The position numbers were made by a program, and so were the translations under genes. DNA of 64,000 nt from the NCBI RefSeq assembly GCF_965363235.1, contig NC_134849.1, forward strand, positions 66,421,122 through 66,485,121, given 5' to 3'. This document shows, in pieces, positions 1 to 63,225 of the stretch; position 1 is the stretch's first letter, and every line of letters starts with the position of its first letter. This stretch comes from Mytilus galloprovincialis. Lineage: Eukaryota; Mollusca; Bivalvia; Mytilida; Mytilidae. The notes under the pieces are model-generated. The model ran no database searches. It had not been told where the DNA came from and was given only the letters and a program-made list of their open reading frames with translations.

Positions 1-3000
1 GGTCATTGTATTTATGGTACTTCAGACATACCTTTAATCTTGTTATACTTCTATGATAAGTTCTGTACCAAGCCAACCTAGGTCATTGTATTTATGGTAC
101 TTCAGACATACCTTTAATCTTGTTATACTTCTATGATAAGTTCTGTACCAAGCCAACCTAGGTCATTGTATTTATGGTACTTCAGACATACCTTTAATCT
201 TGTACTTCTATGATAAGTTCTGTACCAAGCCAACCTAGGTCATTGTATTTATGGTACTTCAGACATACCTTTAATCTTGTTATACTTCTATAAGTTCTGT
301 ACCAAGCCAACCTAGGTAACTGTATTTATGGTACTTCCGACATACCTTTAATCTTGTTATACTTCTATAAGTTCTGTACCAAGCCAACCTAGGTCACTGT
401 ATTTATGGTACTTCCGACATACCTTTAATCTTGTTATACTTCTATGATAAGTTCTGTACCAAGCCAACCTAGGTCACTGTATTTATGGTACTTCCGACAT
501 ACCTTTAATCTTGTTATACTTCTATGATAAGTTCTGTACCAAGCCAACCTAGGTCATTGTATTTATGGTACTTTCAACATACCTTTAATCTTGTTATACT
601 GCTATGATTAGTTCTGTACCAAGCCAACCTAGGTCATTGTATTTATGCTTCTTCAGACATACCTTTAATCTTGTTATACTTCTATGATAAGTTCTGTACC
701 AAGCCAACCTAGGTCACTGTATTTATGGTACTTCAGACATACCTTTAATCTTGTATACTTCTATGATAAGTTCTGTACCAAGCCAACCTAGGTCATTGTA
801 TTTATGGTACTTCAGACATACCTTTAATCTTGTTATACTTCTATGATAAGTTCTGTACCAAGCCAACCTAGGTCATTGTATTTATGGTACTTCAGACATA
901 CCTTTAATCTTGTTATACTTCTATGATAAGTTCTGTACCAAGCCAACCTAGGTCATTGTATATATGGTACTTCAGACATACCTTTAATCTTGTTATACTT
1001 CAATGATTAGTTCTGTACCAAGCCAACCTAGGTATTTATGGTACTTCAGACATACCTTTAATCTTGTTATACTGTTATGATAAGTTCTGTACCAAGCCAA
1101 CCTAGGTCATTGTATATATGGTACTTCAGACATACCTTTAATCTTGTTATACTTCTATGATAAGTTCTGTACCAAGCCAACCTAGGTCATTGTATATATG
1201 GTACTTCAGACATACCTTTAATCTTGTTATACTTCTATGATAAGTTCTGTACCAAGCCAACCTAGGTCATTGTATTTATGGTACTTCAGACATACCTTTA
1301 ATCTTGTTATACTTCTATGATTAGTTCTGTACCAAGCCAACCTAGGTATTTATGGTACTTCAGACATACCTTTAATCTTGTACTTCTATGATAAGTTCTG
1401 TACCAAGCCAACCCAGGTCATTGTATTTATGGTACTTCAGACATACCTTTAATCTTGTACTTCTATGATAAGTTCTGTACCAAGCCAACCTAGGTCATTG
1501 TATTTATGGTACTTCAGACATACCTTTAATCTTGTTATACTTCTATAAGTTCTGTACCAAGCCAACCTAGGTCATTGTGATTATGCTTCTTCAGACATAC
1601 CTTTAATCTTGTTATACTGTTATGATAAGTTCTGTTCCAAGCCAACCTAGGTCATTGTATTTATGGTACTTCAGACATACCTTTAATCTTGTTATACTTC
1701 TATGATAAGTTCTGTACCAAGCCAACCTAGGTCATTGTGTTTATGGTACTTCAGACATACCTTTAATCTTGTTATACTTCTATGATAAGTTCTGTACCAA
1801 GCCAACCTAGGTCATTGTGTTTATGGTACTTCAGACATACCTTTAATCTTGTTATACTTCTATGATTAGTTCTGTACCAAGCCAACCTAGGTCATTGTAT
1901 ATATGGTACTTCAGACATACCTTTAATCTTGTTATACTTCTATGATAAGTTCTGTACCAAGCCAACCTAGGTCATTGTGTTTATGGTACTTCAGACATAC
2001 CTTTAATCTTGTTATACTTCTATGATAAGTTCTGTACCAAGCCAACCTAGGTCATTGTGATTATGCTTCTTCAGACATACCTTTAATCTTGTTATACTGT
2101 TATGATAAGTTCTGTACCAAGCCAACCTAGGTCATTGTATTTATGGTACTTCAGACATACCTTTAATCTTGTTATACTTCTATGATAAGTTCTGTACCAA
2201 GCCAACCTAGGTCATTGTGTTTATGGTACTTCAGACATACCTTTAATCTTGTTATACTTCTATGATAAGTTCTGTACCAAGCCAACCTAGGTCATTGTGT
2301 TTATGGTACTTCAGACATACCTTTAATCTTGTTATACTTCTATGATTAGTTCTGTACCAAGCCAACCTAGGTCATTGTATTTATGGTACTTCAGACATAC
2401 CTTTAATCTTGTTATACTTCTATGATAAGTTCTGTACCAAGCCAACCTAGGTCATTGTGTTTATGGTACTTCAGACATACCTTTAATCTTGTTATACTAC
2501 TATGATAAGTTCTGTACCAAGCCAACCTAGGTCATTGTGTTTATGGTACTTCAGACATACCTTTAATCTTGTTATACTTCTATGATAAGTTCTGTACCAA
2601 GCCAACCTAGGTCATTGTATTTATGGTACTTCAGACATACCTTTAATCTTGTTATACTACTATGATAAGTTATGTACCAAGCCAACCTAGGTCACTGTAT
2701 TTATGGTACTTCAGACATACCTTTAATCTTGTTATACTACTATGATAAGTTATGTACCAAGCCAACCTAGGTCACTGTATTTATGGTACTTCCAACATAC
2801 CTTTAATCTTGTTATACTTCTATGATTAGTTCTGTACCAAGCCAACCTAGGTCATTGTATTTATGGTACTTCAGACATACCTTTAATCTTGTTATACTTC
2901 TATGATTAGTTCTGTACCAAGCCAACCTAGGTCATTGTATTTATGGTACTTCAGACATACCTTTAATCTTGTTATACTTCTATAAGTTCTGTACCAAGCC

Positions 3001-6000
3001 AACCTAGGTCATTGTGTTTATGGTACTTCAGACATACCTTTAATCTTGTTATACTTCTATGATAAGTTCTGTACCAAGCCAACCTAGGTCACTGTATTTA
3101 TGGTACTTCCGACATACCTTTAATCTTGTTATACTTCTATAAGTTCTGTACCAAGCCAACCTAGGTCACTGTATTTATGGTACTTCCGACATACCTTTAA
3201 TCTTGTTATACTTCTATGATAAGTTCTGTACCAAGCCAACCTAGGTCACTGTATTTATGGTACTTCAGACATACCTTTAATCTTGTTATACTTCTATAAG
3301 TTCTGTACCAAGCCAACCTAGGTCACTGTATTTATGGTACTTCCGACATACCTTTAATCTTGTTATACTGCTATGATTAGTTCTGTACCAAGCCAACCTA
3401 GGTCATTGTATTTATGCTTCTTCAGACATACCTTTAATCTTGTTATACTTCTATGATAAGTTCTGTACCAAGCCAACCTAGGTCACTGTATTTATGGTAC
3501 TTCAGACATACCTTTAATCTTGTATACTTCTATGATAAGTTCTGTACCAAGCCAACCTAGGTCATTGTATTTATGGTACTTCAGACATACCTTTAATCTT
3601 GTTATACTTCTATGATAAGTTCTGTACCAAGCCAACCTAGGTCATTGTATTTATGGTACTTCAGACATACCTTTAATCTTGTTATACTTCTATGATAAGT
3701 TCTGTACCAAGCCAACCTAGGTCATTGTATATATGGTACTTCAGACATACCTTTAATCTTGTTATACTTCAATGATTAGTTCTGTACCAAGCCAACCTAG
3801 GTATTTATGGTACTTCAGACATACCTTTAATCTTGTTATACTGTTATGATAAGTTCTGTACCAAGCCAACCTAGGTCATTGTATATATGGTACTTCAGAC
3901 ATACCTTTAATCTTGTTATACTTCTATGATAAGTTCTGTACCAAGCCAACCTAGGTCATTGTATATATGGTACTTCAGACATACCTTTAATCTTGTTATA
4001 CTTCTATGATAAGTTCTGTACCAAGCCAACCTAGGTCATTGTATATATGGTACTTCAGACATACCTTTAATCTTGTTATACTGCTATGATAAGTTCTGTA
4101 CCAAGCCAACCTAGGTCATTGTATTTATGGTACTTCAGACATACCTTTAATCTTGTTATACTTCTATGATAAGTTCTGTACCAAGCCAACCTAGGTCATT
4201 GTATTTATGGTACTTCAGACATACCTTTAATCTTGTTATACTTCTATGATTAGTTCTGTACCAAGCCAACCTAGGTATTTATGGTACTTCAGACATACCT
4301 TTAATCTTGTACTTCTATGATAAGTTCTGTACCAAGCCAACCTAGGTCATTGTATTTATGGTACTTCAGACATACCTTTAATCTTGTACTTCTATGATAA
4401 GTTCTGTACCAAGCCAACCTAGGTCATTGTATTTATGGTACTTCAGACATACCTTTAATCTTGTTATACTTCTATGATAAGTTCTGTACCAAGCCAACCT
4501 AGGTCATTGTATTTATGGTACTTCAGACATACCTTTAATCTTGTTATACTGTTATGATAAGTTCTGTACCAAGCCAACCTAGGTCATTGTATTTATGGTA
4601 CTTCAGACATACCTTTAATCTTGTTATACTTCTATGATAAGTTCTGTACCAAGCCAACCTAGGTCATTGTGTTTATGGTACTTCAGACATACCTTTAATC
4701 TTGTTATACTTCTATGATAAGTTCTGTACCAAGCCAACCTAGGTCATTGTGTTTATGGTACTTCAGACATACCTTTAATCTTGTTATACTTCTATGATTA
4801 GTTCTGTACCAAGCCAACCTAGGTCATTGTATTTATGGTACTTCAGACATACCTTTAATCTTGTTATACTTCTATGATAAGTTCTGTACCAAGCCAACCT
4901 AGGTCATTGTGTTTATGGTACTTCAGACATACCTTTAATCTTGTTATACTACTATGATAAGTTCTGTACCAAGCCAACCTAGGTCATTGTGTTTATGGTA
5001 CTTCAGACATACCTTTAATCTTGTTATACTTCTATGATAAGTTCTGTACCAAGCCAACCTAGGTCATTGTATTTATGGTACTTCAGACATACCTTTAATC
5101 TTGTTATACTACTATGATAAGTTATGTACCAAGCCAACCTAGGTCACTGTATTTATGGTACTTCAGACATACCTTTAATCTTGTTATACTACTATGATAA
5201 GTTATGTACCAAGCCAACCTAGGTCACTGTATTTATGGTACTTCCAACATACCTTTAATCTTGTTATACTTCTATGATTAGTTCTGTACCAAGCCAACCT
5301 AGGTCATTGTATTTATGGTACTTCAGACATACCTTTAATCTTGTTATACTTCTATGATTAGTTCTGTACCAAGCCAACCTAGGTCATTGTATTTATGGTA
5401 CTTCAGACATACCTTTAATCTTGTTATACTTCTATGATAAGTTCTGTACCAAGCCAACCTAGGTCATTGTATTTATGGTACTTCAGACATACCTTTAATC
5501 TTGTTATACTTCTATGATAAGTTCTGTACCAAGCCAACCTAGGTCATTGTATTTATGGTACTTCAGACATACCTTTAATCTTGTTATACTTCTATGATAA
5601 GTTCTGTACCAAGCCAACCTAGGTCATTGTATTTATGGTACTTCAGACATACCTTTAATCTTGTTATACTTCTATGATAAGTTCTGTACCAAGCCAACCT
5701 AGGTCATTGTATTTATGGTACTTCAGACATACCTTTAATCTTGTACTTCTATGATAAGTTCTGTACCAAGCCAACCTAGGTCATTGTATTTATGGTACTT
5801 CAGACATACCTTTAATCTTGTTATACTTCTATAAGTTCTGTACCAAGCCAACCTAGGTCACTGTATTTATGGTACTTCCGACATACCTTTAATCTTGTTA
5901 TACTTCTATAAGTTCTGTACCAAGCCAACCTAGGTCACTGTATTTATGGTACTTCCGACATACCTTTAATCTTGTTATACTTCTATGATAAGTTCTGTAC

Positions 6001-8037
6001 CAAGCCAACCTAGGTCACTGTATTTATGGTACTTCCGACATACCTTTAATCTTGTTATACTTCTATGATAAGTTCTGTACCAAGCCAACCTAGGTCATTG
6101 TATTTATGGTACTTTCAACATACCTTTAATCTTGTTATACTTCTATGATAAGTTCTGTACCAAGCCAACCTAGGTCACTGTATTTATGGTACTTCAGACA
6201 TACCTTTAATCTTGTTATACTTCTATAAGTTCTGTACCAAGCCAACCTAGGTCATTGTATTTATGGTACTTCAGACATACCTTTAATCTTGTTATACTTC
6301 TATAAGTTCTGTACCAAGCCAACCTAGGTCATTGTATTTATGGTACTTCAGACATACCTTTAATCTTGTTATACTTCTATAAGTTCTGTACCAAGCCAAC
6401 CTAGGTCATTGTGTTTATGGTACTTCAGACATACCTTTAATCTTGTTATACTTCTATGATAAGTTCTGTACCAAGCCAACCTAGGTCACTGTATTTATGG
6501 TACTTCCGACATACCTTTAATCTTGTTATACTTCTATAAGTTCTGTACCAAGCCAACCTAGGTCATTGTATTTATGGTACTTCAGACATACCTTTAATCT
6601 TGTTATACTTCTATAAGTTCTGTACCAAGCCAACCTAGGTCATTGTATTTATGGTACTTCAGACATACCTTTAATCTTGTTATACTTCTATAAGTTCTGT
6701 ACCAAGCCAACCTAGGTCATTGTGTTTATGGTACTTCAGACATACCTTTAATCTTGTTATACTTCTATGATAAGTTCTGTACCAAGCCAACCTAGGTCAC
6801 TGTATTTATGGTACTTCCGACATACCTTTAATCTTGTTATACTTCTATAAGTTCTGTACCAAGCCAACCTAGGTCACTGTATTTATGGTACTTCCGACAT
6901 ACCTTTAATCTTGTTATACTTCTATAAGTTCTGTACCAAGCCAACCTAGGTCACTGTATTTATGGTACTTCCGACATACCTTTAATCTTGTTATACTGCT
7001 ATGATTAGTTCTGTACCAAGCCAACCTAGGTCATTGTATATATGGTACTTCAGACATACCTTTAATCTTGTTATACTGCTATGATAAGTTCTGTACCAAG
7101 CCAACCTAGGTCATTGTATTTATGGTACTTCAGACATACCTTTAATCTTGTTATACTTCTATGATAAGTTCTGTACCAAGCCAACCTAGGTCATTGTATT
7201 TATGGTACTTCAGACATACCTTTAATCTTGTTATACTTCTATGATTAGTTCTGTACCAAGCCAACCTAGGTATTTATGGTACTTCAGACATACCTTTAAT
7301 CTTGTACTTCTATGATAAGTTCTGTACCAAGCCAACCTAGGTCATTGTATTTATGGTACTTCAGACATACCTTTAATCTTGTACTTCTATGATAAGTTCT
7401 GTACCAAGCCAACCTAGGTCATTGTATTTATGGTACTTCAGACATACCTTTAATCTTGTTATACTTCTATGATAAGTTCTGTACCAAGCCAACCTAGGTA
7501 TTTATGGTACTTCAGACATACCTTTAATCTTGTTATACTTCTATAAGTTCTGTACCAAGCCAACCTAGGTCACTGTATTTATGGTACTTCCGACATACCT
7601 TTAATCTTGTTATACTTCTATGATAAGTTCTGTACCAAGCCAACCTAGGTCATTGTATTTATGGTACTTCAGACATACCTTTAATCTTGTTATACTTCTA
7701 TGATAAGTTCTGTACCAAGCCAACCTAGGTCATTGTGTTTATGGTACTTCAGACATACCTTTAATCTTGTTATACTTCTATGATAAGTTCTGTACCAAGC
7801 CAACCTAGGTCATTGTATTTATGCTTCTTCAGACATACCTTTAATCTTGTTATACTTCTATGATAAGTTCTGTACCAAGCCAACCTAGGTCACTGTATTT
7901 ATGGTACTTCAGACATACCTTTAATCTTGTTATACTTCTATAAGTTCTGTACCAAGCAAACCTAGGTCATTGTATTTATGGTACTTCAGACATACCTTTA
8001 ATCTTGTTATACTGCTATGATTAGTTCTGTACCAAGC
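1..8037 (-). repeat. ~80 bp tandem satellite array derived from a syntrophin exon/intron junction
   Basis: About 100 head-to-tail monomers fill the first 8 kb and run off the left edge. The canonical monomer is 80 bp; shorter versions lack 4 bp (ctataag instead of ctatgataag), 5 bp (cttgtacttc) or 6 bp (ggtatttatgg). Copies are nearly identical. Read on the minus strand, a monomer holds about 42 nt matching the 3' end of the syntrophin exon at 7996-8148, then the splice donor AAG|GTATGT, then about 38 nt of intron. The last monomer on the right is the exon itself; homology stops at about 8037, within the codons for E-K-A-W. Variant monomers recur in the same order about 2.5-2.8 kb apart, so there is higher-order duplication. 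Spacers are absent and no protein is encoded across units, since 80 is not a multiple of three. Confidence 0.97.
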
Positions 8038-8148
8038 CTTCTCGAGATGTAGTAGCTCTGCTCGGCTTTCTGTACTAAGGTAAAGTTTTTCTCCAGTTCC
8101 AGCCAGTATGTTACAACAGTGTTGTCTGTCATCTAATAATTCTTTATC
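7996..8148 (-). CDS. SNTG: syntrophin PH-domain exon that merges into the satellite
   Basis: The acceptor (TTTAG|GAT) is at 8149-8150 and the donor (AAAG|GTATGT) at 7994-7995. The 153 nt encode 51 residues, from DKELLDDRQHCC to SSITRLK, in phase 0 at both ends. The vertebrate gamma-syntrophin segment I recall (LLDRRKQCF...ERIQ) also has 51 residues, so the exon looks intact and functional. Its last ~42 nt are the rightmost copy of the satellite monomer. Compared with the usual monomer, the exon reads R-T-N-H-S-S where most monomers would read R-T-Y-H-R-S. Confidence 0.88.
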
Positions 8149-11100
8149 CTAAACATAATTTGAGCAAAATAAGGGATTTCCCATCTTTTACTTGTATAAA
8201 TGCCTTTTTGCTTTATTCAAGAACATATGTTGAATAAAAAGTTAGCTTAAAAAAATACAATACATTGTAATATATATATATATTGACTTGTACTTTCTAA
8301 ATTTCAACTGAATTAAACAATAAACAGTTATTATGCAGGTAAATTCTTTACTGAATCAGTGTATAATTTATTGCTGGAAAAGAAAAAAATATTTAGGATA
8401 TTTTTACACATAAATATTTAGGCATTTTGTTATACATTTGTAACATGTAGATTGTCAATTCGTATTAAGCAGAATTTTAGCCGATCAAATCATAGGTGAA
8501 ATCAAATTGCATTAGAAAAAATATTTTTTGCAAATACTATCATTTTTACAATTTTAAAGCAACAAAAAAGTATAGAGTTGGATTTTGATCCAACCAACAA
8601 TACCTTACAAATCTGCAGCATACATTCATAAACTTTGAACACTGTATCACATCTAACCCAGTCTCTCGTTTGCATCTGAAAAATCATAAAGTTTTACAGT
8701 AATTATGTATAACTTTGGAAGTGAAAACTTAAAATTTACCACTTGGAACTCATGATGTAATAACAAAGTTCTCAAATTCTTTGAAATATAGAAAATGCAG
8801 TATGTGAGGTTCTAAAAACACTGATAGGCTTATTTTTCTAAAAGTTTAAGATTTATAAAGGCAAAATCTTTTTTATATCAACTTTTAGTAGTCTTAGCTA
8901 CCTCCATAAGGCTAAATTTTACAGCATCAACAAATTTATTTTCTGAAACTTTTCTTTATCTATGTCATTTTAATTTGAACACTCAAACAAATAAGATTTT
9001 TTTCAGTCTTTTTTGGAACATAGTGGATAGTCTGCAAAACGATACTGACAATCAAAAATTTATCTATTTAAATGGTCAGTGTCATGATTTTTTCATGCTG
9101 TCTTTTTCCTATTAAAAATAACATTCTTTCTAATGAAGTTCTATCTTTAAATATTAAATAGTTAATGAAAATCTAGCAAGTCAAAGGATTTATTATACAA
9201 AAAAGGTAGTTTCGTTTAATTTTTTCACCAACATAACTGGATATTTTAGGTCTATCCTACTTCAAAACTTTCTTTTCTACACAGCTACTTTTGCATAGGT
9301 ACTATTTCTGTACTTGAAATCTGTAGTACTGGAAATTTACTTTTAATATTTAGTACTATTTCGTTACTTTAGAATTATTGTAATATTAAGGTACATGTAT
9401 TTTCCAGTACTTGATTTGTACTTAAAATATTGGTACAAAAATAATACCAACAATGATCACAATATTCCATGTTTGAACATCATAACTTTTGGAGATTTTT
9501 AAAGACAAACTTTAAATATGCTGAAAATGATACCTTGCTACCAAAAATCTGTAGTACTTAAATTTGAAGCACAAATCAAGTACTGTAAAATACAGGTACC
9601 TAACTATTACAATAATTTTTGAGTAACAAAATAGTACTGAATATTAAAAGTAGATTTCCAGTATTACAGTTTTTTTGTACAGAAATAGTACCTTTGCAAA
9701 AGTAGCTGTGTACCCCTTTGTGTATATATGAATTTCAAATCTTCTGCCACTTACTGGTGGATAGTCAAAGAGATAAATATCCGGTCCTTTTAAAGCTACA
9801 AATTTTGGTTTCCATGCTGGTCTGTGTAATGATGGGGAAACTCGCTCATGCATCCAATTCATCATCAGTATCTATTAATAGAAAACACAATTATACAGTC
9901 ACAAAACTAATTTTTCAATTTTTGTTTTCAATGATGTTGGAAAAATCTTTCCTTATGGGGTGTTAATGATTACGATTAGGGAATCTGTACACAATGTTCC
10001 ATTATAGTCTTAAGGTGGTACCCAACACCTTCACTAAAATTAATTTGGCTTGTTTAATATTCATAAAATTTTGACAAAGTATTTAATTTGACTCTTTGAC
10101 AAAAATGTAAAAATTTCAAAAAATTTGAACCAACCATTTTATCAGAAATATTACACTGGTTATATAGCAGTTTGACAAACACCAATATTGATCATTGAGA
10201 AGCTTTATATTCCCTTAACAACGCAATGTAATTAAAACGTTAAGCTGATTTTACAGTTATCTCCCTGTAGTGTTAAGTACCACCTTAAAAAAAAAAATAA
10301 TCTTCACTGTAAATTCAAAAGGGGAAAAGTCTGTAAACCTTGACAAAACCACTTGCTAGACTATGTCTGACTAAATTGAAAACAACTGTTATATTACAGG
10401 CTTTGTGCAGAAAATGGTGGGTTAAACCTGGTTTTATAGCTAGCTAGATCTCCCACTTGTATAACCATGTCTAAGTCAGAAATTAATATGCAAAAGAATG
10501 GGTGGCAAGCATTACACTATTCTTTTTATATTTTGTTCCAACATAAAAACAATGCCTGTATTTAATTAATGGCATGTCAGACAGAACACAGTTTTTAGAT
10601 TTTTAAATTGGTGAATGGCAACTTAAACTCATCGAAACAATGAACTACTTAACCAATTGTTAAATACTAATTTTTAACAATCAAAAATAGGAACTGAATT
10701 CAAGGCATTTGTGTGGCAGATGTTTTGAATGTAATTGTTGGTTTATAAAAACATAGGAAGATGTGGTATGACTGCCAATGAGACACTCTCCAGAAGAGAC
10801 CAAATGACCAAGATGTAAACAAATGCAGTTCACTGCATGCTCTTAAAAAAGTGGCAAATCCCATACTTTATAACAAACTTAAAAAGGCCTTGAAATGACA
10901 AATGTAAAACGATTCACACAAGAAAACAAACATCCTGATATAGATTAGACCGTTGGTTTTCCCGTTTGAATGGTTTTACACTAGTAATTTTGGGGCCCTT
11001 TATAGCTTGTTGTTTGGTGTGAGCCAAGGCTCCGTGTTGAAGGCCGTACATTGACCTATAATGGTTTACCTTTTTTTTTAAATTGTTATTTGGATGGAGA

Positions 11101-14100
11101 GTTGTCTCATTGGCACTCACACCACATCTTCCTATATCTATATATATATATATATATATATATGCTGGCACCTAAAATTTTCTACCAACCTGTTCTTCTG
11201 GTATCAACAGTCTGTTACTCATTCTTATCTGCAATTAGAATAACAAAGTTGTTATCAAATCGTTACATTTCTCAGTTCAGAATTTGGAATCAGATATACT
11301 TTCAGTTCTTATATAACAAAAATCTTTTTCTGGCATTTGAGCTATTGGCAGCCTTTGCCCTCTTTACTCTGTATCAATGATGTAGTGCTTTTACAATTTT
11401 AACAAAATAAACAACTGATTTAGAATCAAAAGAAAGCAAAATTGATATCAAAAATTGATATTTGATAGAAATATATATACTCAATTCCTGATCTAGGTTG
11501 TAGCACTTACCATTTTTGAAATTAGAAATGAAATATTACTGGATATTGCTCTGATCCAATCAGCCAATGAATGACTGTCATCACAATGAATGACACCTGT
11601 TGAGGAACCATCTACACCAATCACTTCAAAGGCATTAGTTCTGAAAAGTTAGAAAGAAATGTATCTAAATCTATGCAATGAAGCATAGTTTCTATGCATA
11701 TTAAACAAAAATTTAACCCAAACAATAAGTATGCAAAATAATACTGGAATAAATTTTAAAATCGTTAAAATTGAAAAGCAGCCAGTCCTTGTGGATCTCA
11801 ACTTGGTGTTAATTTTATGAAGATCAATTATACTGGAGTTAAATAAAGAAATAATCGTACTTGTGTGCATGGATAGACAAAAATATACCTTATGTGAGAC
11901 TTTGACAGGTGCATAACAAAACTTGTCTTATGTCAGAAATCTATCTACATCAATACTTGACTTTAATTCCATAACTTCATCGATATTATATTTTACAGTT
12001 CATATGCTAAAAACAAATTCAACAACAGAACAATTGTCTGTGAAATAAATAACTAACCTTAGTTTATCTGTACCAGGACAGAATCTTGTTAAATAGGCAA
12101 ACAACAACTGTATTGAAACATAGACTCTCCATTGTCTCTCTAAACCAGGAAACATTTCTCTACACTGAAATATGTTATAAAATACTATTATAAATTCAAT
12201 TTTAATACTCATGTCATGTGATTACAGTTGTATATAAAATGATGATAAATATATTGTTAAATTATGATGACTTTGGGCAATTCTCAGACCTAAAAGCTTT
12301 AGGAAAAATTTGGCTGCCACCTACGATCCAAGCGTATTGTAACCAAAAGATTCCAAATGTGATATAGAATTCATCAATATAAAAACTTTTTGGATTGTGG
12401 ATGGCAGGCAAGGTTAATAATGCCAAAAAACAATTAAAATTTTGGACAAAATTGACCAAAATCAACCTAAAATACAAAAAATGTATAATTAAGGGGTTAT
12501 AGCTTCAAAAAAATTTAAAGGAAGGTGCCAAAAAAGTATATTTTAGTCTTAACAATATTATCACAATTATTTCTATTTGAAATTTGTAATTGTTTGGCCC
12601 GATTTACAAAATTTAGGGCCAATTTTAACCCTTCATGAACCTTCTCCTTTGTCCTTGAATCAATCTTGCTTACACTGAAAATGCAAATTTTAGAAAATAT
12701 TCTAATTCAGAGACTGTTATTGGTCCGTTTCTTACATGTTTTGGTGCATGCTCAGTCGACGTACTGACAGCGAAATTTTGACCTTTATCCGAATATCCCG
12801 AACAGAATAAATTACTTTTGAGTTGTTATTCACAAACAGATTCCACCTTCAGGAGGGTCATTTTGACAGAAATTGCAAGTCAAGGCAGACATTTTTTTTT
12901 TCCAATACCAAAGTTTCTCTTTTGAACCTATAAATTTGACTCACCTGACTACCACTGTCTTGATTGTTGTAACTTGGACTATCTGTAAGAGGTATAATGG
13001 AATATATTAACACTAGAAATAGGTCGCTATATATAATAATGATTGATAAAAGGACAGAATATCACTTACTAATGTTGACTTGTTCAGAGATTATTTTCCT
13101 TTCCTCATCTTTGTCATTTCTAGTGCATTTCTCAGATGCATCATCCAATATTTGTTTACATGTTTAACAGTGTTAATCCATTTTTCTATTTTTCTATCAA
13201 ATTTTTATTTTGCCAGAATAAGCACTGTCACTAAAGATGGCCAATTCATGTTTTAAAAATTGCAATTTAAACATTGAAAAGAAGTATAGATCTCTCAAAT
13301 AAGTTTCAAAAAAAAAAAAGTTTCTTCTTTGTCCTTCTCTCAAAGAATTTTCAAAATAATATTTTCTTATTTGGTTTAAGATATTTACCATCCTTATATG
13401 ACTTTTTGTTCAAGTTGTATTTCATTTATATTCTTTTATCAATTTTCATTAAATTAAGGAGGGTAACTTAAAATATGACAAAACAAGGGAAGTAACTCGA
13501 AATTTCTTATAAAGTTTTTTTAAATACACAAAGCTTTTTACAGAATGGCAGTAAGCCTCAGGTAAAGATAGTTGATAAATAAGCTGACAATTTAAGCCAT
13601 ATAATTATACAAGTTCTTTAGTTTACAGGTAAAAATTGCCTTCATCAGTTCCACAAAAACATAATGTATGTTGACACTGATGGTGATAGAAAATAGAGAC
13701 CAACCAAATTTTTGGTATTGAAATTTTGAAATAAAAAAAACGGGAACATTTGAATTATTAATGGAAGGGACAGAAGAGGCTTAAAAATTGGGAGATTTTG
13801 ACTTCCGCCAGAAGAATCACATGTCTGATACCTGGTGTCATCATCTTGTTCAGGAATGGAGCTGCTGGTTTAAAATATTTAACAGTTAGGTTAACAGTAG
13901 AACCAGCATTCTTTAGAGTTGTCATCACTTCACTGTGTGTCATTTTGTCACAAGCCTCTCCATTTATCTGAAACATATACAATAGTATAGTAGTGTAAAA
14001 GGTACATTACATAAAGCCAAATAAGTACATGTGTTTTGTATATGATTCCATCCTCGTTAATAAAACTTAGATAGGTAGGTAGAACTTATTTTAGTATCAT

Positions 14101-17084
14101 TTTGAGTATCTATTCAAATATCATTTTGAGTATCTACTCAAATATCATTTTGAGTATCTATTCAAATATCATTTTGAGTATTTATTCAAATATCATTTTG
14201 ATTATCTATTTAAATCTCATTTTGAGTATCTATTTAAATCTCATTTTGAGTATCTATTCAAATATCATTTTGAGTATCTATTCAAATATCATTTTGAGTA
14301 TCTATTCAAATATCATTTTGAGTATCTATTCAAATATCATTTTGAGTATCTATTCAAATATCATTTTGAGTATCTATTCAAATACCATTTTGATAATCTA
14401 TTCAAATATCATTTTGAGTATCTATTCAAATATCATTTTGAGTATCTATTCAAATATCATTTTGAGTATGTGTGACACCTGCATTCTTAAAGATTAACTA
14501 AGACATTAAGTATCAATAAAACCTTAATGGTGAGGAACTTTGAGGTTTTAAATACATGTGGATTGAGTTCTATCAGTCAGGGGCATTACTTAAACAAGTA
14601 ACAATTAAAATTACCTATACAAGTTATGTTGAAAACGAGGCTATTTTAAATATTACTTATATACGTAACTTTTCTGAATAATATTTTTATAGGTGTCCAA
14701 TAATACAGATTTTACTAACTGTAACAAATTTTCACAGACATCTGGTTATTTTTCTTATGACATGTAAAATCTAATTCTTCTGAAACACTAATTAACTTTC
14801 CGAAGCACTTATCTTTCATACCAAGCTTCTGGGTCAAAGATTGGTCTTGTGGGACTATTAAATTATCATTTTCCTCCAAAATCTTGAAGTTAGACTAATA
14901 TAAATAGAAAGATACTTATAAATTAATTAAGACTTGAAGTTATTTATAATTTGTAACCCAAATCAGTTACATGTGTTCCTTATAAGTTTAATTATTAATT
15001 CTTTTCAAAAATGTATAAAATAACTTATTCAAGTAATATTTTTGTCATAAATTTTAAAGTAACCCATTATCTCTATACTCCTATCTAATCCAATTCATTC
15101 TTTATTTTAAATGATGTAAAAATTGATGAAAACTACATTTAGTCTATGACTATGTTCTATATAAAATTGAAATAACTCTATTAAGTAATTTTATTATTTT
15201 TAAAAACAAAAATTACTTATATAAGTAACTTAAAAAAAATAACTTGTTTAAGTAAAGCCCCTGACTGTCTATATTTCCTTCAATATGAGTTTTAATAGCC
15301 ACATATGCCTATAAATTAATTTTTAATTATAAATAAAGTCTTTCTATTTAACATACGGCACTCAGAAATTTGTACGTCTTTTTCAATAAAATAATTGTTC
15401 TTTGGCATCGTTTAACCAGGTGTATTCTATGTTTTACTTTTCTGCAATTAGATGACTGTTTTTACTTTTAAAAAAAAGACGATGGAAGTCGGTTTTTAAA
15501 AACCAAAAAAACATTTTATGTTTTTTGTATGAAGACTTTCTTGTATGGTACATTTGTGAAAAAGAAACATGATTGTCATGTACTGAGGGTTATTGGTGAG
15601 GGTTGGGATCCAGCTAACATGTTTAACCCCGCCAAATTATTTACCTCTGTGCCTGTCCCAAGTCAGGAGCCTGTAATTCAGTGGTTGTCGTTTGTTTATG
15701 TGTTACATATTTGTTTTTTGTTCTTTTTTTTTTTTTTTTTTTATATAAATAAGGCCGTTAGTTTTCTCATTTGTATTGTTTTACATTATCTTATCGGGGC
15801 CTTTTTTAGCTCACTGTGCGGTATGGGCTTTGCTCATTGTTGAAGGCAGTACAGTGACCTACAGTTGTTAATGTCTGTGTCATTTTGGTCTTTTGTGGAT
15901 AGTTGTCTCATTGGCAATCATACCACATCTTCTTTTTTATATTTCCTAGCCACATTTGTAGGGAGAGCTCATTTCATCTCTTAATTACCATAAATGTCTT
16001 ACTTTTATGATTGCATCTCCAACAAACAACTGTTCTGTCCTAGCTGCTGGTGAGCCTGGTAATAACTTAGAAATCAGGGGAGGTAAGTTATGGTCTGCTC
16101 CTCCCTTTATACTTAATCCTAATCCAGAGTTGTCTTCTCTTAGGATAGAAACTTCTCTAACCTGTGAAAAACTATATCTAGTTAATTTCAATAAGGTCAG
16201 GCCATACCTTGATAATGGTTTACTTTTATAAATTGTTACTTGGATGGAAAGTTGTCTCATCGGCACTCATACCACATCTTCCTATATCTATGTAGTTAAT
16301 TTTGTGATACTTATCCTGTCAACAACAAGGTTGTGAATTCAAACCCTGAAAGTGGCAGATGTGTTTAACTCTCACTTGACTAGGATTGCAATTTTTTCTG
16401 CTGAATTTTGGTAGATCTCTCCATGCACTCCAGCTTCCTCCACAACTAAAACAAAGCCACCACAACATAGCCACCACAACATAGCCACCACAACAAAGCC
16501 ACCACAACAAAGCCACCACAACATAGCCACCACAACATAGCCACCACCACAACATAGCCACCACAACATAGCCACCACAACATAGCCAACACAACATAGC
16601 CAACACAACATAGCCACCACAACATAGCCTCCGCAGCATAGCCACCACAACATAGCCGATAGTGCTGACAGTATCTAAAACACCAACAATCAATCCTATA
16701 ACCTTTTTTTTCTTAAAGGGCTGAGTGAATTTTATTTTAATTCAGATTTTAATTTAACAACAATTTTTGAATTTAGATTAATTAGCATGAAAAAGGTCAT
16801 TTTATTTTCTTGCTAAAAAATCGATTATTCTTGAGTGTTCTATATATTTTTGTTCTTATGGCAAGAAAAATTGAAAAATTTTGGAAAAGATAGGGATTTC
16901 AAATTTGAGGTATTGGACATAAAGGCTGGAAATACATTACCAAATCTTTCATTTGATGTTCTGTTTCCTGTGAAATGGGAACCAGCTCCTCCTTCAGTAG
17001 TATCAAGGCATCATTTGTAAGATGCAATTTGACTGGCTGGGGTCTTGATTTCCCATCATGCAAAGAAACCATTCCACTCTTGAC
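7996..17084 (-). CDS. SNTG: gamma-syntrophin-like gene, partial (10 exons; PDZ + PH domains)
   Basis: Minus-strand exons in transcript order: 16941-17084, 16003-16161, 13832-13967, 12945-12982, 12058-12164, 11511-11640, 11190-11228, 9755-9871, 8604-8675, 7996-8148. All are bounded by AG and GT, phases agree, and they join into 365 codons. Exon 1 here encodes the segment before the PDZ domain (SGMVSLHDGK...VKLHL). The PDZ domain starts at VREVSIL with the carboxylate-binding loop GLGLSIKGG and ends near LTVKYF. PH-like sequence follows (FEVIGVDG, ADWIRAISSNIS, KFVALKGPDIYLF, DTVFKVYE). Order and spacing match vertebrate gamma-syntrophins, adaptor proteins that bind dystrophin-family proteins at the membrane. 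The vertebrate protein is about 517 residues. The start codon exon (upstream of 17084) and the C-terminal syntrophin-unique region (beyond the array) were not found. The gene diverges from EFHC1. Gamma rather than alpha/beta subtype is favoured by sequence recalled from the family, not by a search. Confidence 0.9.
8149..9277. other. AT-rich syntrophin intron sequence around the exon at 8604-8675
   Basis: The exon 8604-8675 (MQTRDWVRCDTVFKVYE..., 24 codons) lies in this stretch. I see no other gene or clear repeat apart from a short (TA)n run near 8268-8283. Confidence 0.5.
9278..9712. mobile_element. foldback (long inverted repeat) element in a syntrophin intron
   Basis: The ends are inverted copies beginning TACACAGCTACTTTTGCA at 9278 and ending at 9712. 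The arms, about 140 bp each, mirror one another through repeated gtac-containing blocks (for example tactggaaatttacttttaa on the left and its mirror near 9640). There is no coding capacity, so it is a non-autonomous element. It stops 42 bp from the 5' splice site of the exon at 9755-9871. Confidence 0.7.
10010..10288. mobile_element. MITE with TTAA ends (copy 1)
   Basis: The terminal inverted repeat TTAAGGTGGTACCCAACAC at the left has an imperfect mirror on the right (gtgttaagtaccaccttaa). A second copy lies at 32032-32303 with the same interior (for example acactggttatatagca). Both ends carry TTAA, which fits a TTAA target as used by piggyBac-type elements, but no transposase is present and the class is a guess. 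Confidence 0.75.
10747..11165. mobile_element. two SINE-like copies in opposite orientation
   Basis: From 10747 to about 10925 a copy reads on the minus strand (its 3' end is gaagatgtggtatgactgcc at the left). From about 10934 to 11165 a second copy reads on the plus strand (gaccgttggttttcccg ... gttgtctcattggcactc), ending in a (TA)n tail. The same family recurs at 15535, 16195, 17735, 30265, 37640, 45190 and 52018. Confidence 0.75.
11190..11228 (-). CDS. SNTG: 39-nt syntrophin microexon
   Basis: Acceptor TTGCAG|ATAAGA and donor GAACAG|GTTGGT enclose exactly 13 codons encoding IRMSNRLLIPEEQ, phase 0 on both sides. It fills a 13-residue gap between the exons at 11511-11640 (ending FLISKM) and 9755-9871 (starting ILMMNWMHE). 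The recalled vertebrate sequence at this place is IKKINRNFPVNQQ, of the same length, sharing I, N-R and the final Q. It is too short for an ORF search. Confidence 0.8.
11641..13831. other. syntrophin introns without further features
   Basis: Apart from the exons at 12058-12164 (PH segment CREMFPGLERQWRVYV) and 12945-12982 (SPSYNNQDSGS linker), the stretch is AT-rich intron. I recognise no other gene, RNA or repeat. Confidence 0.4.
14093..14470. repeat. 24-bp minisatellite, about 16 copies
   Basis: The unit is attttgagtatctattcaaa plus tatc, repeated head to tail with few substitutions. Because 24 is a multiple of three it leaves an open frame, but it sits in the syntrophin intron between the two PDZ exons and no splice-supported coding role is visible. 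Confidence 0.95.
14574..15267. mobile_element. 694-bp inverted-repeat element with TCTAT target duplication
   Basis: Left end CAGTCAGGGGC and right end GCCCCTGACTG are inverted. Subterminal blocks (ttacttaaacaagtaa on the left; acttgtttaagtaa on the right) also mirror. TCTAT flanks both sides (14569-14573 and 15268-15272). There is no open frame, so it is a non-autonomous DNA element; the CAGGGGC core resembles hAT ends. Confidence 0.75.
15535..15945 (+). mobile_element. SINE-like / retroelement 3'-end copy
   Basis: It contains caagtcaggagcctgtaatt, a poly-T run at 15727-15742, gggccttttttagctcactg, and the conserved end gttgtctcattggcaatcat. The ORF that can be read across it is a by-product of the repeat. 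Confidence 0.65.
16195..16295 (+). mobile_element. truncated SINE-like copy beside the PDZ exon
   Basis: Only the 3' part is present (taatggtttacttttataaa ... cggcactcataccacatctt). It begins about 35 bp upstream of the acceptor of the exon at 16003-16161, on the opposite strand to the gene. Confidence 0.7.
16315..16450 (+). mobile_element. degenerate tRNA-derived SINE fragment
   Basis: It shares with the element at 40975-41175 a B-box-like ttgtgaattcaaaccct, the middle block gactaggattgcaa, and the end ggcactccag-like block (tgcactccagcttcctccac). The tail runs directly into the 14-bp minisatellite. Confidence 0.5.
16454..16655. repeat. 14-bp minisatellite, about 14 copies
   Basis: The unit is gccaccacaacata with occasional a/t changes and one 3-bp insertion. 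It starts at the tail of the SINE fragment at 16315-16450, from whose cctccacaac end it may have grown. It lies in the first syntrophin intron of the window. Confidence 0.93.
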
Positions 17085-45863: not shown

Positions 45864-48800
45864 TAGTCTTTATCCTAAAAAATGATAACAGCAACTCTAA
45901 AAAAATATTATGCGTCCAAAGCGTTCTTCTGGATTTTCCTTCATCAGGAACGGTCAAAGTCGAAAATTTGAAGGCTAAGGATGAAACCATGAACGTCAAA
46001 TTCCTCTCAGGTCAACTCATGAGAATCATACAAAACTAACAATTAAAGCTAAGTTTCTAACCGAAACCTAACCCTAATCGAGGTGGCTGACAGAGTAAAG
46101 GGAGATACAGAGAAAGGAGTGGCAGAAAGGAAAGAGGTAGCGAGAGACACACAAAAGAAAGGAGTAAAGGCCAATTTACCCGTATACATATCTATCATAA
46201 ATATTAATGATTGGTATTTATTTTTAACTATTTTTGGCTTAAAAAGTATCATATGTTGGAGTCGGAGATATCTCACCATGAAGATAAGCATCTGTAAAAA
46301 AATGACTGGAAATGCATTAGACAGTCCATGTACAGAGAGAGAGAGAAAAAAACTGATTGCTTTGCTGAATCTTTAAGACAAGATATATCAAAAGAGAATA
46401 AGAAAAGAAGTTTTAAATTGCTGATTATGTTATAGCCACATGTTTTGATGACACAGTGCTTTGTTCTCATGACCCGTATGGTCTGAAACTCTATCTATCT
46501 CAAGACGTACCAGTAATGGAGCAGAAGCATTCCACATGAACTATTATGAACTGTCTTATGCATTTCACCCTTCAATGTTTGTCTTTTTAATCAATAAAGT
46601 GAAGTTTATATAAGCTACTACATACATTAACTGATTGGGAAGTTATCATGCAGTAGCAGTAAGAAGAAAGTATGTTTCAGAAAAGAAAAAATTTGCCGTG
46701 TAAACTGTCGGTTCCAAGTCCGAATAAAGGAGGAGGGAAGTAATTTTTCTTCTAATTGGCGCAATCGTATGTTTTATTTTTGGCGCATATGAGACCATGT
46801 AATTTTAAAACAGGTGGCGCAAACGTAGCATTAGAGAAAAAAGTTGTGGCGCCAAACGACGCATTTTTGGCGCAAACAGATCTCTCCCGGTGACCTAAAG
46901 TATGTCTGTGTCATTTTGGTCTTGTGGACAGTTGTCTCATTGGCAATCATACCACATCTTCTTTTTTATATTTTTTTTACCGAAATTCAGAGTACTAGTA
47001 GTATATAGATCTGCATATGCGCACGTTGCAGTTATACGACATTAAATTATAGTATCATGAATTTCTTTTTAATACACGCTCAAATAAGGAAAATTAGACA
47101 AACAATGTATTGGAAAAGTAGAACCTTGTTAAAGAAAAAGAAAAACGGTTACATATGCTTTTTGTTTACTTACATATATACCGTCAAAAAAGGGTTAGGA
47201 TTATGTTTTTCTCTGACTTTTTATGATGTCTTTCACCTAAATCCGTTAGATGTTGGATGTGTATTGATTGACAATTTAGTCTTTATCCTAAAAAATGATA
47301 ACAGCAACTCTAAAAAAATATTATGCGTCCAAAGCGTTCTTCTGGATTTTCCTTCATCAGGAACGGTCAAAGTCGAAAATTTGAAGGCTAAGGATGAAAC
47401 CATGAACGTCAAATTCCTCTCAGGTCAACTCATGAGAATCATACAAAACTAACAATTAAAGCTAAGTTTCTAACCGAAACCTAACCCTAATCGAGGTGGC
47501 TGACAGAGTAAAGGGAGATACAGAGAAAGGAGTGGCAGAAAGGAAAGAGGTAGCGAGAGACACACAAAAGAAAGGAGTAAAGGCCAATTTACCCGTATAC
47601 ATATCTATCATAAATATTAATGATTGGTATTTATTTTTAACTATTTTTGGCTTAAAAAGTATCATATGTTGGAGTCGGAGATATCTCACCATGAAGATAA
47701 GCATCTGTAAAAAAATGACTGGAAATGCATTAGACAGTCCATGTACAGAGAGAGAGAGAAAAAAACTGATTGCTTTGCTGAATCTTTAAGACAAGATATA
47801 TCAAAAGAGAATAAGAAAAGAAGTTTTAAATTGCTGATTATGTTATAGCCACATGTTTTGATGACACAGTGCTTTGTTCTCATGACCCGTATGGTCTGAA
47901 ACTCTATCTATCTCAAGACGTACCAGTAATGGAGCAGAAGCATTCCACATGAACTATTATGAACTGTCTTATGCATTTCACCCTTCAATGTTTGTCTTTT
48001 TAATCAATAAAGTGAAGTTTATATAAGCTACTACATACATTAACTGATTGGGAAGTTATCATGCAGTAGCAGTAAGAAGAAAGTATGTTTCAGAAAAGAA
48101 AAAATTTGCCGTGTAAACTGTCGGTTCCAAGTCCGAATAAAGGAGGAGGGAAGTAATTTTTCTTCTAATTGGCGCAATCGTATGTTTTATTTTTGGCGCA
48201 TATGAGACCATGTAATTTTAAAACAGGTGGCGCAAACGTAGCATTAGAGAAAAAAGTTGTGGCGCCAAACGACGCATTTTTGGCGCAAACAGATCTCTCC
48301 CGGTGACCTAAAGTATGTCTGTGTCATTTTGGTCTTGTGGACAGTTGTCTCATTGGCAATCATACCACATCTTCTTTTTTATATTTTTTTTACCGAAATT
48401 CAGAGTACTAGTAGTATATAGATCTGCATATGCGCACGTTGCAGTTATACGACATTAAATTATAGTATCATGAATTTCTTTTTAATACACGCTCAAATAA
48501 GGAAAATTAGACAAACAATGTATTGGAAAAGTAGAACCTTGTTAAAGAAAAAGAAAAACGGTTACATATGCTTTTTGTTTACTTACATATATACCGTCAA
48601 AAAAGGGTTAGGATTATGTTTTTCTCTGACTTTTTATGATGTCTTTCACCTAAATCCGTTAGATGTTGGATGTGTATTGATTGACAATTTAGTCTTTATC
48701 CTAAAAAATGATAACAGCAACTCTAAAAAAATATTATGCGTCCAAAGCGTTCTTCTGGATTTTCCTTCATCAGGAACGGTCAAAGTCGAAAATTTGAAGG

Positions 48801-50109
48801 CTAAGGATGAAACCATGAACGTCAAATTCCTCTCAGGTCAACTCATGAGAATCATACAAAACTAACAATTAAAGCTAAGTTTCTAACCGAAACCTAACCC
48901 TAATCGAGGTGGCTGACAGAGTAAAGGGAGATACAGAGAAAGGAGTGGCAGAAAGGAAAGAGGTAGCGAGAGACACACAAAAGAAAGGAGTAAAGGCCAA
49001 TTTACCCGTATACATATCTATCATAAATATTAATGATTGGTATTTATTTTTAACTATTTTTGGCTTAAAAAGTATCATATGTTGGAGTCGGAGATATCTC
49101 ACCATGAAGATAAGCATCTGTAAAAAAATGACTGGAAATGCATTAGACAGTCCATGTACAGAGAGAGAGAGAAAAAAACTGATTGCTTTGCTGAATCTTT
49201 AAGACAAGATATATCAAAAGAGAATAAGAAAAGAAGTTTTAAATTGCTGATTATGTTATAGCCACATGTTTTGATGACACAGTGCTTTGTTCTCATGACC
49301 CGTATGGTCTGAAACTCTATCTATCTCAAGACGTACCAGTAATGGAGCAGAAGCATTCCACATGAACTATTATGAACTGTCTTATGCATTTCACCCTTCA
49401 ATGTTTGTCTTTTTAATCAATAAAGTGAAGTTTATATAAGCTACTACATACATTAACTGATTGGGAAGTTATCATGCAGTAGCAGTAAGAAGAAAGTATG
49501 TTTCAGAAAAGAAAAAATTTGCCGTGTAAACTGTCGGTTCCAAGTCCGAATAAAGGAGGAGGGAAGTAATTTTTCTTCTAATTGGCGCAATCGTATGTTT
49601 TATTTTTGGCGCATATGAGACCATGTAATTTTAAAACAGGTGGCGCAAACGTAGCATTAGAGAAAAAAGTTGTGGCGCCAAACGACGCATTTTTGGCGCA
49701 AACAGATCTCTCCCGGTGACCTAAAGTATGTCTGTGTCATTTTGGTCTTGTGGACAGTTGTCTCATTGGCAATCATACCACATCTTCTTTTTTATATTTT
49801 TTTTACCGAAATTCAGAGTACTAGTAGTATATAGATCTGCATATGCGCACGTTGCAGTTATACGACATTAAATTATAGTATCATGAATTTCTTTTTAATA
49901 CACGCTCAAATAAGGAAAATTAGACAAACAATGTATTGGAAAAGTAGAACCTTGTTAAAGAAAAAGAAAAACGGTTACATATGCTTTTTGTTTACTTACA
50001 TATATACCGTCAAAAAAGGGTTAGGATTATGTTTTTCTCTGACTTTTTATGATGTCTTTCACCTAAATCCGTTAGATGTTGGATGTGTATTGATTGACAA
50101 TTTAGTCTT
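45864..50109. repeat. three tandem copies of a 1,413-bp unit
   Basis: Copies start at 45864, 47277 and 48690; the array closes with a fourth partial TAGTCTT at 50103-50109, so the same 7 bp flank both ends. Wherever I compared them the copies are identical, including both-strand translations of 80-131 residues. Each unit has two possible short ORFs with no recognisable domain, a SINE-like 3' end (gttgtctcattggcaatcat, e.g. 46930), and a cluster of GGCGC words (e.g. 46758-46872). No gene is supported. Confidence 0.95.
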
Positions 50110-59996: not shown

Positions 59997-60545
59997 ACTG
60001 ACACATGAATCATGGCTGTTTAATTACACAGTCTGTCAAGTCAAGTGTTTGCTTCTGTAACAAGAAATAGAGAGGGGTATAGAGGAGGGTGACATGTGAA
60101 TCATGGCTGTTTAATTACACAGTCTGTCAAGTCAAGTGTTTGCTTCTGTAACAAGAAATAGAGAGGGGTATAGAGGAGGGTGACATGTGAATCATGGCTG
60201 TTTAATTACACAGTCTGTCAAGTCAAGTGTTTGCTTCTGTAACAAGAAATAGAGGGGGGTATAGAGGAGGGCGACATGTGAATCATGGCTGTTTAATTAC
60301 ACAGTCTGTCAAGTCAAGTGTTTGCTTCTGTAACAAGAAATAGAGAGGGGTATAGAGGAGGGTGACATGTGAATCATGGCTGTTTAATTACACAGTCTGT
60401 CAAGTCAAGTGTTTGCTTCTGTAACAAGGAATAGAGGGGGGTATAGAGGAGGGTGACATGTGAATCATGGCTGTTTAATTACACAGTCTGTCAAGTCAAG
60501 TGTTTGCTTCTGTAACAAGAAATAGAGGGGGGTATAGAGGAGATT
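59997..60545. repeat. 91-bp minisatellite, 6 copies
   Basis: The copies are anchored by gaatcatggctgtttaatta at 60007, 60098, 60189, 60280, 60371 and 60462. They differ only at a few a/g sites (agagagggg versus agagggggg), so the expansion is recent. Confidence 0.93.
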
Positions 60546-61339
60546 GACACATGAAGTTCTGATCTAAAGGGATGGCCAAAAATATGTGTCTGTTTCATAA
60601 GAGTTTCCTATCTACTGTGTCAAAAATTGATCTAGTAGAATCTGAAATTATAATATTTGCATGTCTCTAAATGTCTTGATAATTTAGATTACTAATCTAT
60701 GATACATGTATATTTAATTAATTTTGTAACAAGTTAGAAAGGGACAAAAAATTTTCTGAATTAAACATTGTGCACTAGTACTACATTAGTTTAAACATAT
60801 TTATTTATAGTGGATTGGGAAACAAGTTTTGCAACTTATATTAATCCCTTTCCACTTTGCGGGTGCGAGTGCTGCCTTGTTGCGGCATTAGCCTGCTCTT
60901 TTTCGAAATCTACAAGGGTGTCTTTAACATACATTAGATTTATTGGCGCCATGCCGTACATGTATAAAATATAAAAAATTAAAGGACATTTGTCGTCATC
61001 AATGCTCACTACTAGTACATGTAGTATGACTCGGTCTGTTTATTTTTGCGACAACTGTTTGCAAAATCCAAAGAACAAAAATTTGAACATTTATTTATTA
61101 TAATTACACCTTATGTAAGAATCCTGGATTTTGATTGGTTGATAGCTAGTGTATTTTTCACCAATTTACTGTTATCAAATGCATATCGTTCATTTTTTAA
61201 CGCCGCCGGGGTATTTGCCAAAAAAATATGCCTTTTTTACCCTCTCTTCCGTGGTATTTGCCAAAAAATACTCTATCCGACTGGACGCTTGTAACGTCAC
61301 GATCATCAATGCGTTTTTGAACATTGACATTCGGTGTAA
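60546..61339. other. EXT1 intron stretch
   Basis: It contains a GC-richer block (60855-60900) and ttgattggttgatagc near 61131, which resembles the CCAAT part of the foldback family. No gene is supported. Confidence 0.35.
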
Positions 61340-61500: not shown

Positions 61501-62039
61501 AATGCCATATAATACCATATAATGCCATATGCTGAGATAAATTTGTCATTACATCATAGCCTAAAGGACATTTATATTTTTGTGGATTTCACTGATTCAG
61601 AATTTAAATGGCAAATTAAGATACCATCCATTTCAGCATTTCTTTTTGTCCATTTAAGCGACATACAATTTACAGTACTATATGTAGTAATCTGTCATAG
61701 GTGTTCTTTTAGGTAAAAGTTTTCAAAGTGAATTTTATTGAGAAAATATATTATTTTAGAAAATATGAAATTATGAAATATTTTATTACAAATTTGAATT
61801 TAATTAATCAGGTAAATTTTGTTAAACATGTCGCTTGTAAATAATTGCTCTGAGCAACACTTTGGTATCTTGTCAATTGTCATTAATTAATCTGAGCAAT
61901 ATTATGTTTTAATTAGGATTATAAATGTAATTAACTTGTATCTCTCTAATTGACATTATTCATATTTCACCTTTGGACATTGTAAACAATATTATTAAAA
62001 CTCAAATCATCTCAATTATCAAAATTATCAATGTCTGTC
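61501..62039. other. AT-rich stretch before the retroelement region
   Basis: No gene or defined repeat is recognised apart from a few ccatataat repeats at 61498-61530. Confidence 0.35.
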
Positions 62040-63225
62040 ATTTATGAGTAGTTTTCAGGATTCGCCTTAAATATCGGAGTCGAACAGTTATTCGTCAGTG
62101 TAGTCTCGTCAGTGTTATCCAGATAGGAGTGCTTCCAAAGCCAACCAGGCTCAGCTACTCAGGAAAAATGCTAACTCAAAAGACAGCTCAACACAACAGT
62201 AACTATTCAAGCCAGACAACATCAATTTGGAATATTACGAACATTTTGGACTTAACTTTAACTGTGAATTAGTGAAATTAGTGACTTTATTATTTGGAAC
62301 ATTTGAACTTTATTTATTTGTAAATTGTTTCGGCATCATTATCATCATTTAGATCTGTTATTATATAAAATTGTTACAACTTGCTGCTTGCTTTATAGTT
62401 TTGCCTGCCATTGCTTAAGTCTTGCGAAAGACTGACCCCCTGTGCCTTGGGCTATGCATGTTCGATAGTCCCCCTTAAACTCGACGTGCATTGGCTCTTG
62501 GTGACAGATTTGGTGGCGGGCCCGTTGGCAGCATTTCGATCCATTTAGCTTTGGCATGGCATTATTATTAGCAACAGCTTTCAAAACTACTTTTAAATTA
62601 TCTACTTACAAAATTTGTGATGGAATTTCGTAACTAAAATTCAACTGAAGGAACAGCAGAGAATGAGAATCAACTATTGAAGCTAAGTAACTTATTGAAA
62701 TATTATTTATTATTTTATCTTAACATTTAAATTTTAATTTTCCAGTTTCAGCAAATATTGTGCAAGATTGAATCTAAATAGATTAAAAATAAAAATTAGT
62801 TTTAAATCTGTAAAAGTTATTGGTAGTATTCAAATGATTTTTTTTTTCATAGTCTACCATTTACAGAAGTCTAATTATAATCTTGTTTAGTTTCAGTTTT
62901 CAACTTTAAAAGTTGCTGTACCAAAGTTGGCAAACTAATTGTAAAGAAAGACAACTGCAGTGTGTGAACAAAATAGAACTACTACAGAGACTAAAGATAA
63001 GTAGCTTTTGAAATAATAATATTCATAATAATTCTCGAAATAAAATTGCTAGTTATCAAAGCAAAAAGTTTCTTCAAAGAAAAGTTGTGAATATATATAA
63101 ATTATTGAGACTGCTAATAAATTTAAGACATTTTGTAGTTTTACACACATTTTATATGGCACATTGCCTTTTTATTCTGTAAATATATTTTATCTAATAT
63201 AGCCAAAATTCTTTTAGTAGAAGTC
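62040..63225 (+). mobile_element. possible 5' leader/LTR region of a retrotransposon
   Basis: The GC-richer block at 62400-62540 (with tggtgacagatttggtggcg near 62500) looks like the primer-binding part of a retroelement leader. I cannot fix LTR borders because the 3' LTR is outside. No gag frame is visible between here and the protease frame. Confidence 0.35.

Follow-up and report, generated by a model that had tools for sequence, protein, structure and literature searches.

The array of tandem repeats analyzed here lies in a gamma-syntrophin gene of the mussel Mytilus galloprovincialis, within a 64,000-bp stretch of DNA (hereafter the window; C12:66421122-66485121, where C12 is contig NC_134849.1 of a 1.385-Gb assembly in 331 contigs), and its closest described counterparts are those of amphioxus and human. 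In amphioxus, "mirage" minisatellites have been reported from Adh3, the globin genes BflGb6 and BflGb9, TnC and PGBD5, many of them with AG/GT signals and with splicing reported as apparently undisturbed (PMC3087553, PMC3902484). Intron 18 of human ABCA7 carries a variable number tandem repeat (VNTR) whose 25-bp unit starts at the donor of exon 18, with alleles of up to 10,678 bp (~427 units), and whose length has been associated with exon 19 skipping and lower expression (PMC5954066). For recently duplicated human genes, 27 intron modifications by variable tandem repeats at exon-intron boundaries (on average four units of 30 bp) have been reported (PMC2812944).

The mussel array shares with the amphioxus mirages its position across an exon-intron boundary, its contact with the authentic exon and the presence of AG/GT signals (here in all 143 units). 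It differs from them in its mollusc host, in a 12-nt filler within the unit and in the existence of a truncated paralogue holding the junction once, as well as in scale: BflGb6 is described with units of 150-160 bp, six in one haplotype and three in the other, compared with 143 units and 11.3 kb in the mussel. As in the ABCA7 VNTR, the donor of the preceding exon is included and repeated; the ABCA7 unit, however, is described as beginning at GT, with no exon sequence, whereas the mussel unit includes 43 nt of coding sequence. The repeats of human segmental duplications lead to new introns (PMC2812944), and the mussel array, in contrast, enlarges an existing one.

We consider it very likely that the mussel array is a giant mirage minisatellite, seeded by a duplication of the exon 8/intron 8 boundary in the only complete gamma-syntrophin gene found. 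An earlier sequence-only reading of the window had held a satellite of this origin to be undescribed, a claim that does not survive the reports of boundary-spanning repeats in amphioxus (PMC3087553, PMC3902484) and human duplications (PMC2812944) and of a repeated splice donor in ABCA7 (PMC5954066). What is new in the mussel is the scale, the presence of coding sequence in a unit of such number, the mollusc host and a tentative indication of another such array, at the preceding exon, in a pearl oyster; a literature search (titles and abstract openings) returned no exon-boundary repeat in a mollusc. The locus suggests that exon-boundary repeats, reported from lancelets and humans, can reach satellite size in molluscs. 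A single intron, in a gene that seems to work, here offers 144 identical donors, with a single-copy junction nearby; this makes the rule of donor choice directly testable, and likewise the birth of a satellite-sized array out of coding sequence.

Repeat unit, array and host gene

Tandem Repeats Finder (TRF) reports a single array at positions 1-8038 of the window, with a period of 80, 101.9 copies and 95% matches. Its proximal end lies inside exon 8, beside the authentic exon, and its main parts are as follows:

1..7995, minus strand: part of the array within the window, 101 full units plus 31 bases, continuing beyond the window to C12:66417844
7996..8038, minus strand: last 43 nt of the exon, with which the exon part of the units is homologous (TRF and unit alignment)
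7996..8148, minus strand: exon 8, the source exon, 51 open codons, acceptor TTTAG, donor AAAG/GTATGT, 100% identical to residues 318-368 of protein P0001

With 100 kb fetched on each side (264 kb examined), the array could be followed to C12:66417844, giving 143 full units and 11,273 bp in total, with unit lengths of 80 (97 units), 77 (33), 74 (11) and 79 (2). The previously suggested figure of about 100 copies thus described a real array, and fell short of its extent past position 1. The last full unit is followed by a 25-nt partial unit and then by unique intron, exon 9 starting at C12:66417418, 425 bp past the last full unit. This distal partial unit is identical to the start of the corresponding intron in the truncated paralogue, and the array thereby grades into the original intron.

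Alignment of the units to the exon, the distal partial unit and the single-copy paralogue resolves the unit (~80 bp, minus strand) into the terminal 43 nt of exon 8, the first 25 nt of the original intron, donor included, and a 12-nt filler, ATGACCTAGGTT, for which no template was found outside the array in the 264 kb around the locus. The sequence-only reading, with ~42 nt of exon, the splice site and ~38 nt of intron, had correctly recognized a junction-spanning unit, but the exon part measures 43 nt and the original intron part 25 nt, the rest being filler. A 22-mer taken from the unit's exon end gave 102 matches at <=3 mismatches vs. 0 in 100 shuffles. The GTATGT start and the ATTAAAG end are kept in 143 of 143 units, so that the 144 identical donors comprise exon 8's own and 143 decoys. 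The copy number in this assembly, the make-up of the unit, its restriction to one locus in the genome search and the intact reading frame of the gene are direct observations. An artefactual over-expansion of a few copies during assembly is highly unlikely, given that 34 distinct unit types occur in non-random order and that both array ends join unique sequence cleanly.

The host gene was reconstructed as an open gamma-syntrophin model of 11 exons, all with AG acceptors and the first ten with GT donors, using the human SNTG1 sequence and with one linker exon placed by eye; exon numbers are those of this model. The exons upstream of exon 8 fall within the window, all supported by the gene model and the mapping of P0001 (exons 2 and 3 also by Pfam):

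8604..8675, minus strand: exon 7 (MQTRDW...QICK)
9755..9871, minus strand: exon 6
11511..11640, minus strand: exon 5
12058..12164, minus strand: exon 4
13832..13967, minus strand: exon 3, second part of the PDZ domain
16003..16161, minus strand: exon 2, first part of the PDZ domain
16941..17084, minus strand: exon 1 of the model (the MEE start of P0001 is further upstream, not located)

Protein P0001, annotated by NCBI as 'gamma-1-syntrophin-like [Mytilus galloprovincialis]', is the best protein match to the model; its 11 stretches align to the gene at 93-100%, several past splice borders, and it joins exon 8 straight to exon 9 (...SITRLK/HKTFG...) without array sequence. The start MEE and a short exon, IRMSNRLLIPEEQ, are present in P0001 and absent from the reconstructed model. 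Pfam domains PDZ, PH, PH_17 and Syntrophin_4th score above their cut-offs on the model, and phmmer against PDB matches the longer model to PDZ structures including those of syntrophins (with three exons as the query, this search gave two chance matches only). A genome search with P0001 yielded 21 matches, distributed between this gene (11), the truncated copy (6) and places elsewhere at 25-42% identity (4), and therefore no other complete gamma-syntrophin was found in the genome. The claim of an intact syntrophin exon of 51 residues was borne out, the exon at 7996-8148 being open for 51 codons and followed by GTATGT. As a separate observation on this gene, TRF also reports a 24-bp tandem repeat (15.6 copies; window 14095-14469) in the intron upstream of exon 3.

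Source and growth of the array

At the array itself exon and unit run into each other without a break, and among 142 units three match the exon's 43-nt tail exactly, as would also be expected if an older repeat had been inserted at the junction and now supplied the end of the exon and its donor; the locus alone therefore gives no direction. The direction comes from a comparison of 38 aligned homologues, taken from the 120 listed of 497 found. Most bivalve rows, distant ones included, keep the exon 8 end in both length and sequence (AWYRTNHTAITRLK in Dreissena, SWYRVNHSSITRLK in Pinctada, AWYRCNHYSIVKLK in Argopecten and AWYKTYHTSITSIK in Saccostrea), the tail being kept in Potamilus as well as in scallop and oyster proteins, which makes the exon old and the array a derived feature. 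A few rows depart from this pattern (scallop P0042 diverges after EKAW, P0025 stops short and P0003 is without exon 9), and gastropod and amphioxus rows show larger differences at the exon 8 end than bivalves do. Human SNTG1 aligns without gaps across the 51 residues of exon 8. A junction-spanning 30-mer has 141 matches in the genome at <=2 mismatches (places given for the first 100), and a separate count inside the array also gives 141, therefore none lies elsewhere; a classical multi-locus satellite thus finds no second locus in this whole-genome search with one 30-mer. Largely refuted by the bivalve conservation, and with the human alignment and the 30-mer counts likewise opposed to it, a satellite that came first is highly improbable. 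Sequence comparison instead points to exon 8 as the source of the array and to an old age of its tail. The earlier suggestion of an array seeded by the boundary between exon and intron, and still attached to what seems to be a working exon, accordingly stands, P0001 bridging the array and the 30-mer being confined to one locus.

The surroundings of the gene provide a second copy of the junction. A tandem segmental duplication (C12:66324400-66434971, ~78-96% identical in blocks) includes a truncated syntrophin pseudogene downstream of the gene, the exon 8 of which (C12:66359919-66359767, 69 kb away) contains a TGA and is followed by the junction once and then by a 427-bp intron; a search of 45 kb recovered neither exons 1-3 nor exons 10-11 of the pseudogene. 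Intron gain by AGGT tandem duplication (the Rogers model) was considered and rejected, with no new intron position created and the array-free paralogue having its intron at the same place.

The single junction of the pseudogene may also be read in the opposite way, namely, that the array is older than the segmental duplication and that the pseudogene lost its copies through crossing-over of the exon with the last partial unit. We regard this collapse as a serious, although clearly less probable, alternative. Column 25 of the unit alignment is C in the functional exon (codon AGC, Ser, a residue found also in P0002 and the M. edulis protein) and in 15 of 142 units, and it is A in the pseudogene, a base shared with the distal partial unit and with 116 of 142 units; a single crossover located between columns 17 and 25 would account for this pattern. 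The argument, however, depends on one site, which could equally well reflect an old polymorphism, the same change arising in parallel or gene conversion from one copy to the other. The mean substitution divergence of the 142 units is 2.9%, compared with 5.7 and 8.3% (gaps counted) in two BLAST blocks of the segmental copies that flank the array, a difference that also speaks against collapse, with the caveat that homogenization can reset the divergence of units. Other positions add further detail: 16 of 142 units are identical to the paralogue's tail. In mirages, units at the edges of a cluster would escape homogenization; here the exon has the minority C at column 25, the first unit has a T at column 1 that is unique to it, and the distal partial unit has a T at column 54 that occurs in 0 of 142 units.

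Under the preferred reading, i.e., seeding by a boundary duplication, the first event would have been a duplication linking intron position +25 with a site in exon 8 that lies 43 nt upstream of the exon's end, bridged by a 12-nt filler of the kind that end-joining leaves. Unequal exchange and duplication of blocks would then have multiplied the unit to 143 copies, so that intron 8 grew from about 427 bp to 11.7 kb. Stretches of the array repeat one another in their order of unit types (over 12 units at lag 70 and over 11 at lag 31, the longest such run in 200 shuffles being 6), a pattern consistent with large blocks having been duplicated. By decile, divergence showed no gradient from one end of the array to the other (means 5.36 to 6.57).

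Splicing of the enlarged intron

The first donor, exon 8's own, is probably the one used, since only exon 8 has a real acceptor upstream; exon definition would favor it, with the 143 decoys bypassed. When the frame of exon 8 is continued into the array, it closes after 21 codons at a stop in the first unit, upstream of the first decoy donor; splicing from any decoy would hence retain the first unit with its in-frame stop. Recursive splicing through the array was rejected as the AG sites of the consensus unit are without pyrimidine tracts: at these 7 sites the upstream pyrimidine fraction is 0.29-0.53 vs. 0.59-0.82 at the 11 real acceptors.

A functional role of the array, in which decoy donors would bind U1 in large numbers or lower the inclusion of exon 9 and array length would tune gamma-syntrophin output, appears to us unlikely, for all that several observations point that way. 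In addition to the GTATGT and ATTAAAG motifs, unchanged throughout, an 18-column stretch around the donor contains 0 of the 22 variable columns among the 80 of the unit (P ~0.04 for any such stretch, 0.01 at the junction and 0.05 for the 9-nt donor, in post hoc tests with sites placed at random). In the Mytilus edulis model P0003, exon 8 is followed directly by exon 10, so that exon 9, which comes right after the array intron, is skipped in frame. In ABCA7, the following exon is skipped more as the repeat lengthens (PMC5954066). Nevertheless, the post hoc tests are weak, with few independent mutations behind the 22 sites, the ends of the P0003 model are doubtful, and no signal of RNA folding was obtained, all three sequences examined folding no better than shuffles (z 0.49 to 1.14, with 133 to 176 of 200 shuffles folding at least as well).

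Several points weigh against the origin and splicing proposed here. The length of the array depends on one assembly, and the genome search skips very common words, so that the single-locus claim is valid for that search only. The pseudogene does not represent a clean pre-array state, and a single copy of the junction does not prove the ancestral one. The apparent joining of exons 8 and 9 is known from the annotation P0001, and the omission of exon 9 in P0003 could mean that splicing is not simple there.

A possible second case and neighboring repeats

An annotated protein of the pearl oyster Pinctada imbricata, P0027, contains nine in-frame units of 17 residues, in each of which VSN precedes the terminal residues of the upstream syntrophin exon (TVFRVYECMFKVLR or a close variant). 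This repeat looks like a donor-containing array at exon 7 with a 51-bp unit read in frame, because VS in phase can encode GTRAGT (as judged from protein letters only). Repeated 8-mers were detected in P0005 and P0027 only among 120 scanned proteins, and the VSN plus exon-end repeat was found in none of the other 119. With residues 150-420 of P0027 as the query, and scoring confined to the 8000 candidates that had most words in common with it, 25 proteins were listed, the other 24 of which align over 24-35% of this stretch; one of the 25, P0121, was outside the repeat scan. The internal repeat of scallop P0005 was rejected as a similar case, being by eye unlike an exon end and absent from scallop P0042, the contig of which has an equal length, and is taken as a gene-model matter. 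It is a speculative and rather improbable extension that bivalve gamma-syntrophin repeatedly spawns arrays of its own donors (143 units at exon 8 in Mytilus and, independently, nine units at exon 7 in Pinctada imbricata), with array length changing inclusion of the next exon as in ABCA7.

Other repeats in the window include a tandem repeat with a period of 1413 bp (45864-50109, ~3 copies, 100% identity), either recent or a matter of assembly, and a 91-bp tandem repeat (59999-60549, 6.1 copies, 97% matches by TRF). An 818-bp direct repeat at 61689-62506 is 99.9% identical to C12:66490023-66490840, 7.2 kb away, the two copies possibly being the ends of a young long terminal repeat (LTR) element.

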